64,000 nt of DNA from Nitrospirota bacterium (GTDB lineage Bacteria > Nitrospirota > Nitrospiria > Nitrospirales > Nitrospiraceae): contig JBFLWP010000016.1 in NCBI GenBank assembly GCA_040757595.1, positions 1 to 64,000 of the forward strand, in the 5' to 3' direction. Below, piece after piece: positions 21,870 to 46,497 of the stretch. Below the pieces are notes generated by a model. The model had not been told where the DNA came from. It made no database searches and worked only from the letters and a program-made list of their open reading frames with translations. Within the stretch, counting starts at the first letter, position 1. Every line of letters begins with the position of its first letter. A program made the position numbers and the translations under genes.

Positions 21870-21990
21870 ACCAAACGCAAGGCGTGAAACGTGATGAGTG
21901 ATCGGTGATGGGTGGTGAAGAGATGATCGAAGAGGACAGGACCGTCACCAGTTCACCGGTCGCGCATCACCCGTCACCCATCACCCACGA
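21870..21990. repeat. Palindromic repeat at the start of the ABC ATPase gene
   Basis: GTGAAACGTGATGAGTGATCGGTGATGGGTGGTG (about 21882-21916, written here only as units GTGATGRGTGAT) is answered by inverse units at about 21950-21985 (CATCACCCGTCACCCATCACC). The right part is translated as the divergent N-terminus of the ATPase. Confidence 0.6.
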
Positions 21991-29160: not shown

Positions 29161-29222
29161 ACGGCAACACGTGACGGGTGACGCGTGACGAATGACGGGT
29201 GGCTCACGCCGGGACGGCGGAC
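29161..29222. repeat. Repeat spacer, 'GTGACGGGTGACGCGTGACG' style
   Basis: Three to four copies of RCGTGACGGGTGACG-like units in one orientation (about 29170-29205). The opposite arm is weak (GGCTCACGCC). It lies between the mlaD-like gene and the lipoprotein gene. Confidence 0.45.
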
Positions 29223-31958: not shown

Positions 31959-31997
31959 GTTCTCAGTTTCAGACTCAGAAAACTGACCACTGAGAAC
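31959..31997. repeat. Palindromic spacer, 'ACTGAGAAC' family
   Basis: A perfect 9-bp dyad (GTTCTCAGT at 31959-31967 and ACTGAGAAC at 31989-31997) within a spacer full of CTGA/CAGT units. It is a separate family from the CGTGAGACG spacers. It precedes the DUF2892 gene. Confidence 0.55.
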
Positions 31998-32033
31998 CGA
32001 CAACTGAAAACTTTCATAAGAGGGAGGTGCGCC

Positions 32034-32252
32034 ATGACCTGCAACGTGGGGGGAATCGAACGGCCGATCCGGATCGTGCTCGGAATCATCCTCCTGGGGA
32101 TCGGCTCCTTCGCCGAGCTGCCGGCTGCGGGAACTGCCGTCGCGTTCATCGTCGGGGCCGTGGCCCTGGTGACCGGGGCCATCGGGTTCTGCCCGGCCTG
32201 GGCCCTGTTCGGCATCAACACCTGTCCGACGAAACCGGCCGAGAAGACGTGA
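32034..32252 (+). CDS. Small DUF2892 (YgaP-type membrane) protein
   Basis: 72 residues with two membrane helices: CNVGGIERPIRIVLGIILLGIG at the start, CPAWALFGINTC at the end. This short two-helix domain is found alone or fused to rhodanese domains and often lies near sulfur metabolism genes, as here next to an SQR gene. ATG 32034 is preceded by AGAGGGAGG. Confidence 0.88.
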   Translation: MTCNVGGIERPIRIVLGIILLGIGSFAELPAAGTAVAFIVGAVALVTGAIGFCPAWALFGINTCPTKPAEKT

Positions 32253-32335
32253 AACGTGAGACGTAAGGCGTGAGGAGGCCGGGCTTTCCGTTCTTTCCTC
32301 CTCACGTCTAACGTCTAACCTCTCACGTCTCACGC
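32248..32335. repeat. Dispersed palindrome, 'CGTGAGACGT' family
   Basis: Left arm about 32248-32274 (ACGTGAAACGTGAGACGTAA and on), right arm about 32301-32335 (CCTCACGTCTAACGTCTAAC and on), loop of about 26 bases. It overlaps the 3' end and stop of the DUF2892 gene. The arms are made of alternating ACGTGAR units. Confidence 0.75.
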
Positions 32336-34030: not shown

Positions 34031-34828
34031 GTGATCGGCCAAGCGGTCTTGCCGGTGGCGGCGGGCGTGCCGATCGGCCTGCAGCTCGGCGCCACGGGCA
34101 CCGGCGGGGCGATCCTGGCCGTCCCCGTGCTCGTCTACGTGGCCGGCATCCCGGCCAAGGAGGCCGCCGCCATGTCCCTCGTGATCGTCGCGGCCTCGGC
34201 CTGGCTCGGCGTGTGGGAGTACAGCCGGCTCGGCCTGGTCAAGCCCAAGGCCGCGGTGGCCTTTTCCTGGACCGGCGTCGCCGGCTCCTGGTTCGGAGCC
34301 TACGGGCACAAGCTGGTGCCGAACGAAATCCTGCTCGTCGGGTTCGGGATCATGCTGCTGCTGGCCCGGTACTTGATGATGCGCCAGCGCAAGCTCGCCC
34401 AGGAAGCCGAGCCGGACTCCAGTTGCGCGGCCCGCTTTCCCCGGACCTGCTGGCTCAAGCTGGCGGGACTGGGCCTGGTGGTCGGGGTGCTGAACGGGTT
34501 CTTCGGGGTCGGCGGCGGCTTCATGATCGTCCCGGCTCTGGCCCTCTTTGCCGGGTTCACCCCGCGCCAGGCCATCGGCACCTCGCTCTGCATCATCGCG
34601 ATCATTTCCTTAGGCGGCATCGCGCGGCACGTCCAGCTCGGAGCGCTGAACGGGCCGCTGACCCTGCTGGTGATCCTCGGAAGCGCGGCCGGCATGGTCC
34701 TGGGCGCCCGCCTCGGGCAGATGGTCGCCCCGCAGACGATGAGCCGGTTCACCGCCGCCGTCACGGTCAGCATCGCGGCCATGCTGATCGCCGTGAACGG
34801 CGCCAAAATTCTGAATGAGAATTTTTAG
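34031..34828 (+). CDS. TSUP/TauE-SafE family membrane permease
   Basis: 265 residues, full-length two-half TSUP protein: GLQLGATGTGGAILAVPVLVY in half one and GVLNGFFGVGGGFMIVPAL in half two, about eight helices. Members export sulfite, sulfoacetate or similar anions; beside SQR a role with sulfur oxyanions is plausible. Start GTG 34031 is the first codon that retains the whole first helix. The stop is at the edge of a palindromic spacer. Confidence 0.88.
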   Translation: MIGQAVLPVAAGVPIGLQLGATGTGGAILAVPVLVYVAGIPAKEAAAMSLVIVAASAWLGVWEYSRLGLVKPKAAVAFSWTGVAGSWFGAYGHKLVPNEILLVGFGIMLLLARYLMMRQRKLAQEAEPDSSCAARFPRTCWLKLAGLGLVVGVLNGFFGVGGGFMIVPALALFAGFTPRQAIGTSLCIIAIISLGGIARHVQLGALNGPLTLLVILGSAAGMVLGARLGQMVAPQTMSRFTAAVTVSIAAMLIAVNGAKILNENF

Positions 34829-34881
34829 TTGAGAGTTTTGAATTTTGAGTTGCCCCCCAACTCAAAACTCACAATTCACAA
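34829..34881. repeat. AT-rich palindromic spacer, 'TTGAGTTTTGAATT' family
   Basis: Left arm 34829-34852 and right arm 34858-34881 are inverse in about 20 of 24 bases, with a loop of only five C residues. It begins at the stop codon of the TSUP gene and is far more AT-rich than its surroundings. It may act as a transcript hairpin, but no T run follows. Confidence 0.75.
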
Positions 34882-34908
34882 CTCGAAATTCAGGGACAAA
34901 GGGACAAT

Positions 34909-35460
34909 ATGAGCGTTCACGAACCAGAGCCGAGCAAAGACGCCCCCGGCTTCCACACCCCGGTCGGCTCCCGACGGACGTTCTTCCGGTGGATGACGGG
35001 GCTCGCCGCGGGCTTCATCGGCGCCGGACTGGCCGTCCCGCTGCTCGGCTACGTCGTCTCCCCGGCCTTCACGCGCCGGGAAAAACCCTGGGTTCCGGTC
35101 GGCCGGGTGGACGACCTGCCCGTCGGCGAGCCCAAGCAACTGGATTACATCACGACCCTCAAGGACGGCTGGATGGAGACCAAGGCCCACAAGGCCGTCT
35201 GGGCGATCAAACAGGCCGACGGCCAGGTCACCGTCTTCTCGCCCCTCTGCACCCATCTCGGCTGCGGTTACCGGTGGGACGATCCGGACCGCAAGTTCAA
35301 GTGTCCGTGCCACGGCAGCGTGTACGACCTCGCTGGCAAGGTGCTGGGCGGGCCGGCTCCGCGTCGCCTGGACGTGCTTCCCTCGAAGGTCGAAAACGGG
35401 CAGCTCTTCGTGATCTACAAGGAATTCAAGGCGGGGCTTCCGACGCCGGTGGAACTGTGA
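34909..35460 (+). CDS. petA: Rieske iron-sulfur protein of a cytochrome bc complex
   Basis: 183 residues. Twin-arginine-type leader (SRRTFFRWM) and one membrane helix, then the Rieske domain with CTHLGC and CPCHGS, which hold the 2Fe-2S cluster. It passes electrons from quinol to cytochrome. The cytochrome b-c gene follows after an inserted four-helix-bundle gene; in most bacteria these two genes are directly adjacent. The symbol is by analogy. Confidence 0.9.
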   Translation: MSVHEPEPSKDAPGFHTPVGSRRTFFRWMTGLAAGFIGAGLAVPLLGYVVSPAFTRREKPWVPVGRVDDLPVGEPKQLDYITTLKDGWMETKAHKAVWAIKQADGQVTVFSPLCTHLGCGYRWDDPDRKFKCPCHGSVYDLAGKVLGGPAPRRLDVLPSKVENGQLFVIYKEFKAGLPTPVEL

Positions 35461-35462
35461 CC

Positions 35463-35905
35463 GTTAGACGTAAAACGTGAGACGTGAGATGTAAGGCGGG
35501 AGCGTACAGCGCGGGACGGGAAAAGTGGAGAAACCGCACAAGAAACTGGATGCTTGGCGACTCGCCGTCGAACTCGCAACTTACGTTTACCGAACCACTG
35601 ATCACTTCCCGAGGGACGAGCGTTTTGGTCTGACCGATCAGATGCGCAGAGCGGCTGTCAGCATCCCCAGCAACATTGCTGAAGGCGCAGCCCGAAAAAG
35701 CAAGAAGGAGTTTGCGCAGTTTATTCACACCGCACGCGGTTCGCTGGGCGAGCTTGATACGCACCTGGAACTGGCGCGTCGCCCGGGCTTTCTCGACGAG
35801 GGCACATGGAAAGACCTCGACGCGCGCATGAAACGTATTGACATGGCTCTTGCCGGTTTGCTTCGCTTCCGACAATCGTCTCACGTCTGACGTTTCACGT
35901 CTTAC
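35463..35905. mobile_element. Candidate palindrome-flanked element carrying a four-helix-bundle gene
   Basis: Terminal arms 35463-35489 and 35879-35905 are inverse repeats with 24 of 27 matching bases (unit ACGTGAGA). They enclose one gene (35525-35890) whose last codons and stop lie in the right arm. The whole interrupts the Rieske-cytochrome b gene pair. The arms belong to the same family as gene-free spacers at 32248-32335 and 46410-46497. Mobility is an inference; no target duplication is obvious. Confidence 0.55.
35525..35890 (+). CDS. Four-helix-bundle protein (S23 / 23S rRNA intervening-sequence protein family)
   Basis: 121 residues, GTG start. Family signature: KLDAWRLAVELATYVYRTT at the start, FGLTDQMRRAAVSIPSNIAEGAAR in the middle, then TARGSLGELDTHLELA. 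Such proteins are encoded inside excised insertions of 23S rRNA in some bacteria and, in the bAvd branch, assist diversity-generating retroelements. No rRNA or reverse transcriptase is near. The gene sits inside inverted arms between petA- and petB-type genes. Function here is unknown. Confidence 0.88.
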   Translation: MEKPHKKLDAWRLAVELATYVYRTTDHFPRDERFGLTDQMRRAAVSIPSNIAEGAARKSKKEFAQFIHTARGSLGELDTHLELARRPGFLDEGTWKDLDARMKRIDMALAGLLRFRQSSHV

Positions 35906-35914
35906 GAGATAAAT

Positions 35915-37243
35915 ATGGCGTCCAAACTATACGAATGGCTGGACAGCCGGCTGAAGCTCCAGCCGATCGAGAAGACGCTGCTGGACGAGCCGATCCCCGG
36001 CGGGGCGAGCTGGATCTACGTGTTCGGCTCCGCGACGCTCTTTCTTTTCCTTCTCCAGGCGGTCACCGGCATGTTCCTGGCGATCTACTACGCCCCCACG
36101 CCGGACCACGCCTACGACAGTATCCGGTTCATCGAGACCCAGGTGACCTTCGGCGCCTTCGTCCGCGGCCTCCACCACTGGGGCGCCTCGGGGATGGTCG
36201 TGGCCATCGGCCTGCACATGCTCCAAACCTTCCTGTACGGGGCCTACAAGCCCCCGCGCGAGGTCATGTGGATGGTCGGGGTCGTGCTCTTCCTGATCAC
36301 CCTGAGCTTCGCCTTCACCGGCTATCTCCTGCCCTGGGATCAGAACGCCTACTGGGCGACGCAGATCGGGATCAACATGGTGGGGACCGTGCCGGTCGTG
36401 GGAGACGTCCTCGTCCGCGTGCTCCGCGGCGGCGAGGCGCTGGGGGCGCTGACTCTTTCCCGGTTCTTCGCCGTCCACGTGCTGTTCCTCCCGGCGACGC
36501 TGGCCATCGGCGTCGTGCTCCACCTGTTCATCCTCCGCCGCGTCGGGCCCGCGGGCCCCTGGACCGACGAACGGGCCAGGCTCGGCGGCGAGACCTTCTA
36601 CCCCCGCCAGGTCTACATGGACGCGGTGGTCATGCTGGCCGTCTTCGCCGGGCTGGCGACCCTGGCGCTCGCGGTCAGCTTTCCGCTGGCGGACAAGGCC
36701 AGCCCCTCCGACACCACGTTCGTGCCGATCCCGGAATGGTACTTCCTGTTCTACTACCAGTTGCTGAAATACGTGCACGGGCCGTTGGAGCCGCTGGCCA
36801 CCTGGGTCCTGCCGGCGCTGTTTTTCCTCCTCCTGCTCTTCTGGCCCTTCATTGACCGCAACCCGGCCCGCAACCCGATCCGGCGCCCCGCCGCCCTGGC
36901 GGCCGGCGCGGCGCTCCTCGTGACGGTCTTCGCGCTCCTGGGCGTCTCGCTGCGGGACCTCTACGCGGTCCCGCGCGTGGACCCGGCCGTGGCGCGCGGA
37001 CAGGCGGTCTTCGCCCGCTTCGGCTGCGCCGGCTGCCACCGCGTCCACGGAGAAGGAGGCGCGATCGGGCCGGACCTGTCCTACGAAGGCGACGCGAGGC
37101 CGGAGCGGGAGTGGCACCTGCGGCACTTCCGCGACCCGCAGTCGGTCTCGCCCGGCTCGATCATGCCGAAGTTCCCGCTGACCGAGCAGGAATTGAACGA
37201 CCTGGCCAGCTACATGCTCAGCCTCAAGCGCCCGGCGGCATGA
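35915..37243 (+). CDS. petB: Cytochrome b fused to a C-terminal cytochrome c domain
   Basis: 442 residues. Residues 1 to about 350 are cytochrome b: haem-ligand histidines in GLHHWGASG and GLHMLQTFLYG, later HVLFLPATLAIGVVLH, and the quinol-site motif PEWYFLFYYQLLKY. After the last helices a short linker leads to a haem c domain with CAGCH and a late Met (SIMPKFPLTE). It forms the membrane core of a bc-type complex with the Rieske protein, and the fused cytochrome c would replace a separate c1/f subunit. Confidence 0.92.
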   Translation: MASKLYEWLDSRLKLQPIEKTLLDEPIPGGASWIYVFGSATLFLFLLQAVTGMFLAIYYAPTPDHAYDSIRFIETQVTFGAFVRGLHHWGASGMVVAIGLHMLQTFLYGAYKPPREVMWMVGVVLFLITLSFAFTGYLLPWDQNAYWATQIGINMVGTVPVVGDVLVRVLRGGEALGALTLSRFFAVHVLFLPATLAIGVVLHLFILRRVGPAGPWTDERARLGGETFYPRQVYMDAVVMLAVFAGLATLALAVSFPLADKASPSDTTFVPIPEWYFLFYYQLLKYVHGPLEPLATWVLPALFFLLLLFWPFIDRNPARNPIRRPAALAAGAALLVTVFALLGVSLRDLYAVPRVDPAVARGQAVFARFGCAGCHRVHGEGGAIGPDLSYEGDARPEREWHLRHFRDPQSVSPGSIMPKFPLTEQELNDLASYMLSLKRPAA

Positions 37244-44726: not shown

Positions 44727-46412
44727 ATGAGTCGTGGCAATGTGTTTTCGCGGGCCCTACTTGCCGCGTTGGTGGCCGCCTCGGCGGCGGGCCCGCTCGG
44801 CCTCGGCGGCGAATCGGCACAGGCCGCCGCTCCCCAGAAGAAGGCGAAACCGTCCGCCAAACCCTCGCCAGCCGGGACGGTCGCGCAACGGTACGCGGAG
44901 GCCCTGGCGGCCGGCGACCGTCTCGCCGCCGGTCAGCTCGACTTCGCCTGCCTCTTCCGCATGGTCGGGCCGGGCGGTAAGAAGGCGACGGCCTTCCCGC
45001 CGGCGGCCGACCCGGTCTACGCCCGCTGCTGGGACCAGTTGTCGCAAGCCCACCAGAGCGCCGTCGAGTACCGGGAGCAGGGCATGGACACCCTGTGGCC
45101 GGGGAAGGGCTCGCTGGTGTTCTTCCGCGAGCCCTTGACCTCGTACGCCTCCTCCTTCTTCGTCATGGACCTGGTGGGCACCTCGCCGCCCGGCAGCGGC
45201 CTGAAGCTGGAGTACCTCAACAGCCGGAAGCTCCCAGCCGTGTCCTTCAAGCTGCGCGAAGACGCCCCGACGATCTCGGCGCCGGCCACGCTCGTCACCC
45301 TGCGCGTGACCTACAAGGACCCCCTGACCTCGCCGGTCTCCTACGCCCCCGGGACCTACAAGTGGACCAGCACGATCAAGCGGCCGCGGGCGGCGCTGAA
45401 GGCGGTCACGGTCAAGTGGGTCGTGGTGCGCGGGCTGAAGAAACTGGGCTTCCCGAGCGACGCGGCGGTCGTGAACCGGCCCGTATCGGAACGGGACGGG
45501 GTGCGCGTGCCGTTCGCGACCGAGACCAGCGTCTACGTGGAGGATTCCGCCGTCTGGTGGGGACCGGCCGATCAGCCGGGGACCCTCCTGGCCGCGGTGG
45601 GGCGCGCCGCGCTGTTCCCCGGCCTCGCCGAGCGGGTCGCGATGCTCAACCGGGTGCTGATCATCGACCCGGCCCAGCCGGACGCGCTCACGTTGCTCAC
45701 CCGGGACCTCTACCAGACCCTCCTGCGCGCCGCCGAGGCGGAGCACAAGGTCCTGGTGGGGGATGAGGTGCTGGGGGCCCGGTTCGACGAGCTCTACTGG
45801 GACGCCTACGCCCAGACCACCAGGATGGCCATTTCGCTCGGAATGGAGATGGGAGGCCTGGCGAAGCCGACGCCGGCCGATTACCTCTACCGGCTCATTC
45901 CCGCGATGGAGATGCTGGCGAAAGTCCGGCCGGAGGACTTGGAAAACCGCCTGCGCCTGGGGATCGCCTACCGTTGGAACAACGACCAGCTCGGCGCGAT
46001 CAACACCCACGAGGCGCTGGTCCGCGCCCTGCCGCCGGAGCGGTACGTGCAGCGGGCCCGGGCCCTGATCGAGCTGGCCTGGTCGCGGATCGCGCGCGTG
46101 TCCTGGAATCGCAGCTTCAACGACCCCAGCATCCTCCAGGCGTACCGGGAGGCGGAGGAGGCCTACAAGTTCACGGATCGGCCGCTGGACAAGTTCGTCG
46201 CGGCCTATACGATGGCCTACAGCCTGGCCTTCACGCCGAACCGCGACAACCGCGCCATGCTGGAGCTGTTGACCGACGCACAGCGCTGGTACCAAGACCT
46301 GCCGGGAGCCTCCCCGGCCTCCTGGCGGTACCTGCTCAGCAACGACTCGCTCAAGGGCGTGCTGGAAGCGGACCCCCTCTTCAAGCCCCTGCTCGACGCC
46401 TCGCAGCCGTAA
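44727..46412 (+). CDS. Large secreted protein of unknown function
   Basis: 561 residues: signal peptide (to about QAAA), Lys/Pro/Ala-rich linker, then an alpha/beta region and helical repeats toward the end (LRLGIAYRWNNDQLGAINTHEALVRALPPERY), possibly TPR-like. I do not recognise a named family. Upstream promoter and ribosome site support the start. The stop codon TAA lies in the left arm of a palindromic repeat. Confidence 0.7.
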   Translation: MSRGNVFSRALLAALVAASAAGPLGLGGESAQAAAPQKKAKPSAKPSPAGTVAQRYAEALAAGDRLAAGQLDFACLFRMVGPGGKKATAFPPAADPVYARCWDQLSQAHQSAVEYREQGMDTLWPGKGSLVFFREPLTSYASSFFVMDLVGTSPPGSGLKLEYLNSRKLPAVSFKLREDAPTISAPATLVTLRVTYKDPLTSPVSYAPGTYKWTSTIKRPRAALKAVTVKWVVVRGLKKLGFPSDAAVVNRPVSERDGVRVPFATETSVYVEDSAVWWGPADQPGTLLAAVGRAALFPGLAERVAMLNRVLIIDPAQPDALTLLTRDLYQTLLRAAEAEHKVLVGDEVLGARFDELYWDAYAQTTRMAISLGMEMGGLAKPTPADYLYRLIPAMEMLAKVRPEDLENRLRLGIAYRWNNDQLGAINTHEALVRALPPERYVQRARALIELAWSRIARVSWNRSFNDPSILQAYREAEEAYKFTDRPLDKFVAAYTMAYSLAFTPNRDNRAMLELLTDAQRWYQDLPGASPASWRYLLSNDSLKGVLEADPLFKPLLDASQP

Positions 46413-46497
46413 GACGTGAGACGTAAAACGTGAGACGTGAGAATAGGGGATGGAAGTCTACACCTCTTACGTTTCACGTCTCACCTTTCACGTCTTC
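46410..46497. repeat. Dispersed palindrome between convergent genes, 'ACGTGAGACG' family
   Basis: Arms 46410-46442 and 46465-46497 (33 bases each, about 28 matches), with a 22-base loop. The left arm provides the TAA stop of the forward gene (46410-46412) and the right arm the TGA stop of the reverse gene (46488-46490). It may also work as a two-way transcript stop, although T runs are lacking. Confidence 0.8.

Follow-up and report, generated by a model that had tools for sequence, protein, structure and literature searches.

Selfish elements probably formed by S23 genes and their heptad-repeat arms, with gene-free relatives across bacterial genomes

S23 is a small orphan gene that has been known since the 1990s from inserts in rRNA. 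Why, then, does such a gene lie between two inverted arms behind a protein-coding gene of a Nitrospirota bacterium, and why do similar arms occur in the same genome without any gene between them? This question is raised by the window, i.e. the stretch of 64,000 nucleotides that was analysed here. We consider it likely that the gene and its arms together are a selfish element, and that a ring of S23 proteins recognises the heptad arms and thus lets both the element and the gene-free palindromes spread.

The S23 element between the Rieske and cytochrome b genes

The whole element, consisting of the 5' arm, the S23 gene and the 3' arm, covers 445 bp (35462 to 35906); it and all genes and arms of the window described in this paragraph are on the forward strand. 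The Rieske iron-sulfur gene (34909 to 35460) ends with a stop codon that finishes 1 nt short of the 5' arm, and the gene for a b6-type cytochrome b with a cytochrome c domain (35915 to 37243) starts 9 nt past the 3' arm. The initial annotation had described the two genes as interrupted by the S23 gene; the latter does sit between them, but neither gene is itself broken and they are merely separated. The 5' arm (35462 to 35495) is a heptad array, CGTTAGA CGTAAAA CGTGAGA CGTGAGA TGTAAG, with five cores of the type CGTnARA and a lag-7 score of 13.2, and the 3' arm (35877 to 35906) is the array CGTCTCA CGTCTGA CGTTTCA CGTCTTA CG. The gene (S23, 23S_rRNA_IVP or four helix bundle protein; 35525 to 35890) encodes 121 amino acids from a GTG start codon at 35525, and its stop codon (35888 to 35890) is indeed located inside the 3' arm. 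In profile searches, the protein matched both TIGR02436 (E=1.6e-33, 115 bits as compared to a cut-off of 24) and PF05635 (E=1.9e-35, 122.8 bits as compared to a cut-off of 33.8), which confirms the presence of an S23/IVS-type gene between the arms. The outer 28 nt of the arms are complementary at 25 positions (the 24 of 27 reported initially hold when counted from 35463 rather than 35462), and the three mismatches are spaced by exactly 7 nt; across 43 nt (35462 to 35504 versus 35864 to 35906) complementarity is 79%. The arm score of the element is 25; for control spans taken from this locus, the 99th percentile is 15. The element folds into a long stem (z=-2.4). The same site carries an S23 element with the same words in a genome of the sister genus (G001). 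We found no rRNA match between 31500 and 37500 of the window, no Rfam family for the arms, and no plasmid copy of the element in a DNA search.

Two gene-free palindromes of the same family had been proposed at 32248-32335 and 46410-46497. Both were recovered, at 32245-32330 (IR score 21.5) and 46405-46495 (IR score 17.5); they share the word of the window's S23 element, and in each of them the 5' arm includes the stop codon with which the ORF upstream ends (32250-32252 and 46410-46412, respectively). Four further gene-free heptad palindromes were identified in the window: two with the word GTGATNN, which is that of an S23 clade present in relatives (2396-2482 and 21883-21987), one with a different word of the GTTTTGA/AACTCAA type upstream of the Rieske gene (34819-34891), and one with words similar to those in the arms of L003, a different S23 element of this genome (63406-63492; L003 is on G000:C9). 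The window also contains an imperfectly inverted pair of arrays, GTCAATG / CCATCAC (12467-12549), a single GTGACNN array on the forward strand (29171-29197), and a single or degenerate array (31982-32012).

The genome of the window (G000, 3.37 Mb) contains six PF05635 matches. By eye, all six S23 genes lie between inverted arms, with words that differ from one gene to the next; the automatic arm score recovers four of the six loci, the remaining two being decayed copies (L004 and L006 on G000:C9) that carry in-frame stop codons and have decayed arms as well. The word of the window element has 51 matches in this genome, the highest number among 175 genomes (runner-up: 19). GTGATNN heptads are found 74 times, with no resident S23 gene of that word among the loci examined, and these copies must be orphans or remnants, or reflect missed genes, or have been mobilised in trans.

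Arms and heptads around S23 genes in other genomes

Two sets of S23 genes were studied, one from the Nitrospiraceae (85 loci) and one from GTDB species across phyla (82 loci), with an arm score of at least 14 as the criterion. Arms were present at 82% of the S23 genes in the first and 71% in the second set; the corresponding values are 2.6% for control genes at these loci and 1.2% for short genes. A lack of any association between the S23 family and such arms elsewhere had been named beforehand as an outcome that would speak against a mobile unit; the association is strong. About 29% of the loci across phyla have no arms at this score, and among 15 S23 loci with weak or no arms that were inspected for an rRNA location, none was in rRNA. 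Measured from arm to arm, the elements have a median length of 470 bp (412-636 bp, 5th to 95th percentile). A stop codon within the 3' arm, as in the window, is not a general feature, as it was seen in 19 of 131 cases. Samples of 80 kb per genome contained arrays in S23-rich but not in S23-poor genomes, based on small numbers. In one strain of Calothrix brevissima, plasmids 1 and 2 share a stretch in which a phage integrase gene is followed by an S23 gene with AGGGTGT heptad arms (L371, L372), and the S23 gene of a Paludibacterium MAG lies between longer inverted repeats that show no obvious heptad array (L058, flanks of 1733-2077; GTTACTCCCGCAGTTAAAGATGCTGG...).

The arms are periodic. Their self-match at lag 7 is 0.65 in the family set and 0.64 in the GTDB set, as compared to 0.30 after shuffling, and it is 0.64-0.67 at lag 14; at lags that are not multiples of 7 it is at background level in both sets independently. 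Lag 7 exceeds the 99th percentile of the shuffles in 69% of the 5' and 65% of the 3' flanks, whereas this is the case for 0-5% at lags 5, 6, 9, 10 and 11 and for 10-12% at lag 8. The lengths of the arrays peak at 30-32 nt (83 of 211 arrays), with 114 of the 211 measuring 28-34 nt; a typical array has four complete heptads plus a fifth core, e. g. GTGAtaaGTGAtctGTGAtggGTGAtgaGTGA, and thus holds about five cores. Within the heptad, column conservation is 1.0/.99/.99/.98/.90/.73/.59, corresponding to 4-5 near-invariant and 2-3 variable bases. Mismatches between the two arms are spaced by 7, 14 and 21 nt, and their rate is 25% in variable but only 3% in conserved columns, a difference that is partly built in by defining the classes on one arm. 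The concentration of the mismatches in the variable columns indicates that the core sequence itself is kept, beyond mere pairing. Read forward, 59% of the 5' arms have stop codons in all three frames, as compared to 33% after column shuffling; words like GTGANNN yield such stops since 7 cannot be divided by 3. At the trxB-thiI locus, the outermost bases of the 3' arm (GATTC in G031 and G043, loci L163 and L169; GCCTTC in G092, locus L159) are complementary to codons of the host trxB gene (GAATC and GAAAGC, respectively) and vary with them, as if the second arm were a copy of the first that took in host sequence, or as if the base of the stem were under selection.

These observations bear on two alternative explanations. 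It is hardly credible that the arms are low-complexity sequence that arose by chance, or just terminators of the usual kind flanking a gene in an intergenic region. The intergenic regions of these genomes do contain many hairpins, but control genes have arms in 1-3% of the cases as compared to 71-82%, the periodicity is restricted to 7, and reversed patterns yield counts of essentially zero, and these three controls exclude terminators or chance as the source of the arms. The other idea is that the arms mainly serve as a substrate for RNase III, which would excise the S23 gene from the host transcript in the manner of an rRNA intervening sequence (IVS). The Coxiella IVS has the same anatomy, in which a 28-bp stem, cut by RNase III, encloses an S23 ORF in its loop (PMC4990558), and the window element forms a long stem as well. 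Nevertheless, any stem sequence would serve this purpose, whereas the arms have a fixed core, a register of 7 and a word that goes with the protein clade (see below); moreover, a mismatch every 7 nt is a poor design for RNase III. We therefore regard excision as the main role of the arms as improbable. Excision and a selfish element do not exclude each other, and the former is compatible with the latter.

Words, protein clades and gene-free copies

Does the word of an arm belong to the genome, to the locus, or to the protein? To answer this, we compared S23 genes from different genomes only and removed all pairs with any DNA or protein similarity in the 1.5-kb flanks. The fraction of pairs with a shared word rises with the identity of the S23 proteins, from 0.3% at 30-40% identity to 4% at 50-55%, 17% at 60-65% and 40% at 65-70% (n=43), and reaches seven of eight pairs at 70-80%; the reverse-strand control stays flat, with at most one of eight in the top bin. 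The Mantel correlation between word and protein is 0.29, whereas the maximum of 1000 permutations was 0.12. A word fixed by the genome is ruled out, since elements within one genome have the same word in only 4% of the pairs, and sharing due to a common locus is ruled out by the exclusion of pairs with similar flanks. The word thus belongs to the protein clade and not to the genome or the locus. Since it tracks S23 identity at unrelated loci, we can conclude that the gene and its arms are one unit.

The gene-free copies follow the same rule. In the Xanthomonadaceae, S23 genes related to XCC0516 (2GSC) nearly always have arms of GGGAATC/GGGATTC or GTGATTC/GTGAATC heptads. Counts of the pattern GGGAWTSGGGAWTSG in 149 genomes of this family gave a median of 232 for 37 genomes with a close XCC0516-type S23 gene, of 3.5 for 28 genomes with distant S23 genes only, and of 0 for 84 genomes without S23 (232 versus 0: p=1e-18, kinship ignored). 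At least 10 copies were present in 36 of the 37 genomes with a close S23 gene and in 11 of the 84 S23-negative ones; the copies in the latter must be remnants, or reflect missed genes, or have been mobilised in trans. The lone genome with a close S23 gene and few copies (G221) has an S23 gene whose arms use GTGATTC instead (L354). For all word counts, the reversed-pattern controls were essentially zero. In the Nitrospiraceae, GTGATNN triplets have a median of 12 in genomes with a GTGATNN-armed S23 gene and of 0 in other genomes with S23 (p=2.5e-4), and for CAGCNNT the medians are 16 and 10 (p=0.008), kinship being ignored in both comparisons. The total number of repeats increases with the number of S23 genes (rho 0.46 in 175 genomes, kinship ignored); inside the large genus g15, rho is 0.39 (p=4e-4), and inside genus g17 there is no correlation. 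Gene-free copies of a word are thus, by these counts, numerous mainly in genomes with the cognate S23 gene. Together with the pairing of word and protein at unrelated loci, this correlation supports the initial suggestion that the gene-free palindromes are non-autonomous relatives of the element, and the idea is far more general than had been supposed.

It is also conceivable that the palindromes spread on their own, by slippage with templated copying of the hairpin or by another enzyme, and that S23 is a passenger that settles inside palindromes of a word that it recognises. The gene-free palindromes are far more numerous than the S23 copies, some genomes contain words without a known S23 gene, and at a locus with a GTGATNN-armed S23 gene the end of the host gene in the empty relatives already reads GTGATAAGTGATC, all of which would fit such a scenario. 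It is at odds with the rarity of the words in the absence of the cognate S23 gene (the medians of 0 and 232 mentioned above), with the word-specificity of this excess, and with arms that go along with the protein clade at unrelated loci, and we judge it to be unlikely.

The counts also link S23 to a family of repeats that was so far unexplained. Intergenic heptamers of the type GGGNATC occur in Nostoc and, in enriched form, in Xanthomonas; in the latter they often form convergent inverted pairs, of which a genome holds about 70, and no link of the repeats to mobile elements was found (Rehm et al. 2015, PMC4692102). Their forms GGGAATC/GGGATTC are the arm word of the S23 genes of the Xanthomonadaceae. 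For Geobacter, the heptanucleotide families GGACCGG and MTYCTGA have been described (PMC2700814). Both reports treat the heptamers as G-quadruplex or regulator sites, and their passages on the repeats make no mention of S23 (PMC4692102, PMC2700814). Our own search of the literature, which was conducted largely without subscription journals and preprints, yielded no work that links S23 with heptamer repeats or palindromes.

Placement, protein structure and possible spread of the elements

The S23 gene has the same strand as the upstream gene in 67 of 74 cases, and in 44 of these 67 the stop codon of the host gene is inside the arm or at most 5 nt away. Several loci show presence and absence of the element, and empty sites, for which a survey had been proposed, do exist. 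Among the 31 genomes examined at the Rieske-cytochrome b junction, the S23 element is found only in that of the window and in G001, so that its position is not shared by all relatives; the junction is bare in G019, G034 and G044 (12-22 bp) and carries gene-free palindromes of other words in further genomes. At the trxB-thiI junction, five of 29 genomes of one genus have the element. At a glycosyltransferase locus, G067 has the element, whereas G064, with flanks that are 99% and 96% identical, has an unrelated spacer of 87 bp; here, it is possible that the filled allele was moved by recombination. A target-site duplication was sought at three junctions, and nothing convincing was found: no clean duplication can be read because the spacer seen in the empty site is often replaced in the filled one. 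Some elements are old residents of one locus, as at trxB-thiI, where the element is found in many genera, and any movement must therefore be slow. Most genomes of genus g13 that lack the element at trxB-thiI (L268-L297) carry there one or two copies of a dispersed repeat of about 120 nt (GGATGCTCAAAATGG...GGCGTACCCTTGCGGTACGTTGAGGAT...CAGCATCCTG) that is unrelated to the heptad arms. At the locus where relatives have a GTGATNN-armed S23 gene, the empty site in G121 (L323) and G081 (L312) is the end of the host gene, CGTGATAAGTGATCAGT, a target that is already word-like.

The position behind genes might also suggest that S23 is an RNA-binding regulator of the host. The heptad hairpins at the 3' ends of genes would then be its sites, at which mRNAs are stabilised or processed, and the site at its own gene would serve for autoregulation, similar to TRAP. 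Such a role agrees with the location of the hairpins at gene ends and of S23 on the transcribed strand, with the purifying selection on the S23 protein (dN/dS 0.07-0.20), with a conserved core next to a free spacer, and with the elements that stay at one locus across many genera. Yet the words at one junction can be wholly different between related genomes, sites are gained and lost, copy numbers range from zero to several hundred among species of one family, and S23 genes of differing words occur together in one genome. A host regulon is thus a rather doubtful explanation, if somewhat less so than the two stem- and passenger-based ones discussed above.

How could a protein of 121 amino acids promote the spread of its own gene? 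The AF2 model of the monomer (pLDDT 95) predicts the four-helix fold of 2GSC, with TM values of 0.92 to this structure (2gsc_B), 0.77-0.80 to 2RLD and 0.74-0.77 to Avd (4DWL). All structures of the S23 family that were found, 2GSC, 2RLD and Avd 4DWL, contain five chains (A-E), and by analogy the S23 protein is probably a five-membered ring. No catalytic motif is recognisable in the protein. With five subunits in the ring and about five cores in an arm, each subunit may contact one core at a pitch of 7 nt, although this agreement of numbers alone may be a coincidence. A precedent is the TRAP protein of Bacillus, an RNA-binding ring that reads one short repeat (tandem triplets) per subunit at a fixed spacing; TRAP is unrelated to S23, for which binding is only putative, and lends no more than its logic.

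For the selfish element that we favour, the following course can be imagined. The single unit of about 445-500 bp would encode a ring that recognises the arm, with its approximately five cores of 4-5 bases at 7-base spacing, by one core per subunit. The arm would be bound as a single strand or hairpin, either as RNA or as DNA; RNA is favoured by the sense orientation and by the rRNA IVS, and single-stranded DNA is compatible with the sequence. Through this recognition, the element and those gene-free palindromes that share its word would be copied into further sites by enzymes of the host or, alternatively, by a reverse transcriptase, as in the relatives of S23 in diversity-generating retroelements (DGRs). 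New copies would be kept directly downstream of a gene's stop codon and in the orientation of that gene, where the arm can supply the stop codon for the host gene and the S23 gene may ride on its transcript. We infer the binding of the arm, the ratio of one core per subunit, the nature of the bound nucleic acid and the copying step.

The comparison with known systems places the S23 element between several of them. rRNA intervening sequences with an S23/IVP ORF are present in Coxiella and Leptospira (PMC4990558) and in rRNA genes of CPR bacteria (PMC11270868); they have been called selfish, and their mobility was proposed by earlier authors (PMC4990558, PMC11270868). As in the elements studied here, their S23-family ORF occupies a loop that is closed by complementary ends of about 28 nt. 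In contrast, our elements are located behind protein genes rather than in a helix of the 23S or 16S rRNA, and they have heptad arms with a clade-specific word and gene-free relatives dispersed through the genome, which differs from the IVS as described. REP palindromes form REPINs with the RAYT tyrosine transposases (PMC3116915), and this system shares with S23 the many short gene-free palindromes and a small cognate gene between palindrome copies. Unlike RAYT, S23 is all-helical, has no catalytic motif and is not an HUH transposase, and it is the single ORF of the element; unlike the REPs with their GTAG/CGTC tags (PMC3733652), its palindromes are heptad arrays. In DGRs, homing requires a hairpin or cruciform at the stop codon of the target gene (PMC3240598). 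Avd, a protein of these retroelements (4DWL, 8UB7), has the fold and the five chains of the S23 family and acts with RNA and a reverse transcriptase. The S23 element differs from a DGR in that it has no reverse transcriptase, for which 445 bp would be too short, and no apparent template repeat, and the window protein scored 27.3 against the Avd model NF033474, under the cut-off of 80. As for insertion sequences and MITEs, with their terminal inverted repeats and target-site duplications, the S23 element has inverted arms, and between its filled and empty sites the spacer is replaced and no clean duplication can be read. In summary, the S23 element has the anatomy of an rRNA IVS and follows the logic of REP/RAYT, and by the tested criteria it is a member of neither.

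A broader proposal, for and against which we see the balance as about even, is that bacteria at large harbour a class of mobile elements without a recognisable transposase, in which S23 genes are the autonomous members. Their pentameric ring would read five cores at 7-nt spacing in each arm, each clade having its own word; the heptamer palindromes of Xanthomonas, Geobacter and the cyanobacteria would be their non-autonomous offspring, and the rRNA IVS would be the special case of an element that landed in rRNA. The function of S23/IVP has been open since the intervening sequences in rRNA were described, and the heptamer repeats had no explanation; the two are now tied by a quantitative word code specific to the clade. 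If true, this would define a very widespread class of minimal selfish elements that explains much of the palindromic sequence between genes in several phyla. It would also provide a two-sided system, protein clade versus word, for the study of recognition, and the idea of binding is now concrete: five cores, five subunits and a register of 7 nt. On the side of the protein, the covariation between S23 residues and words is weak; only Q65 exceeded all 300 permutations, and this residue may serve as a lead.
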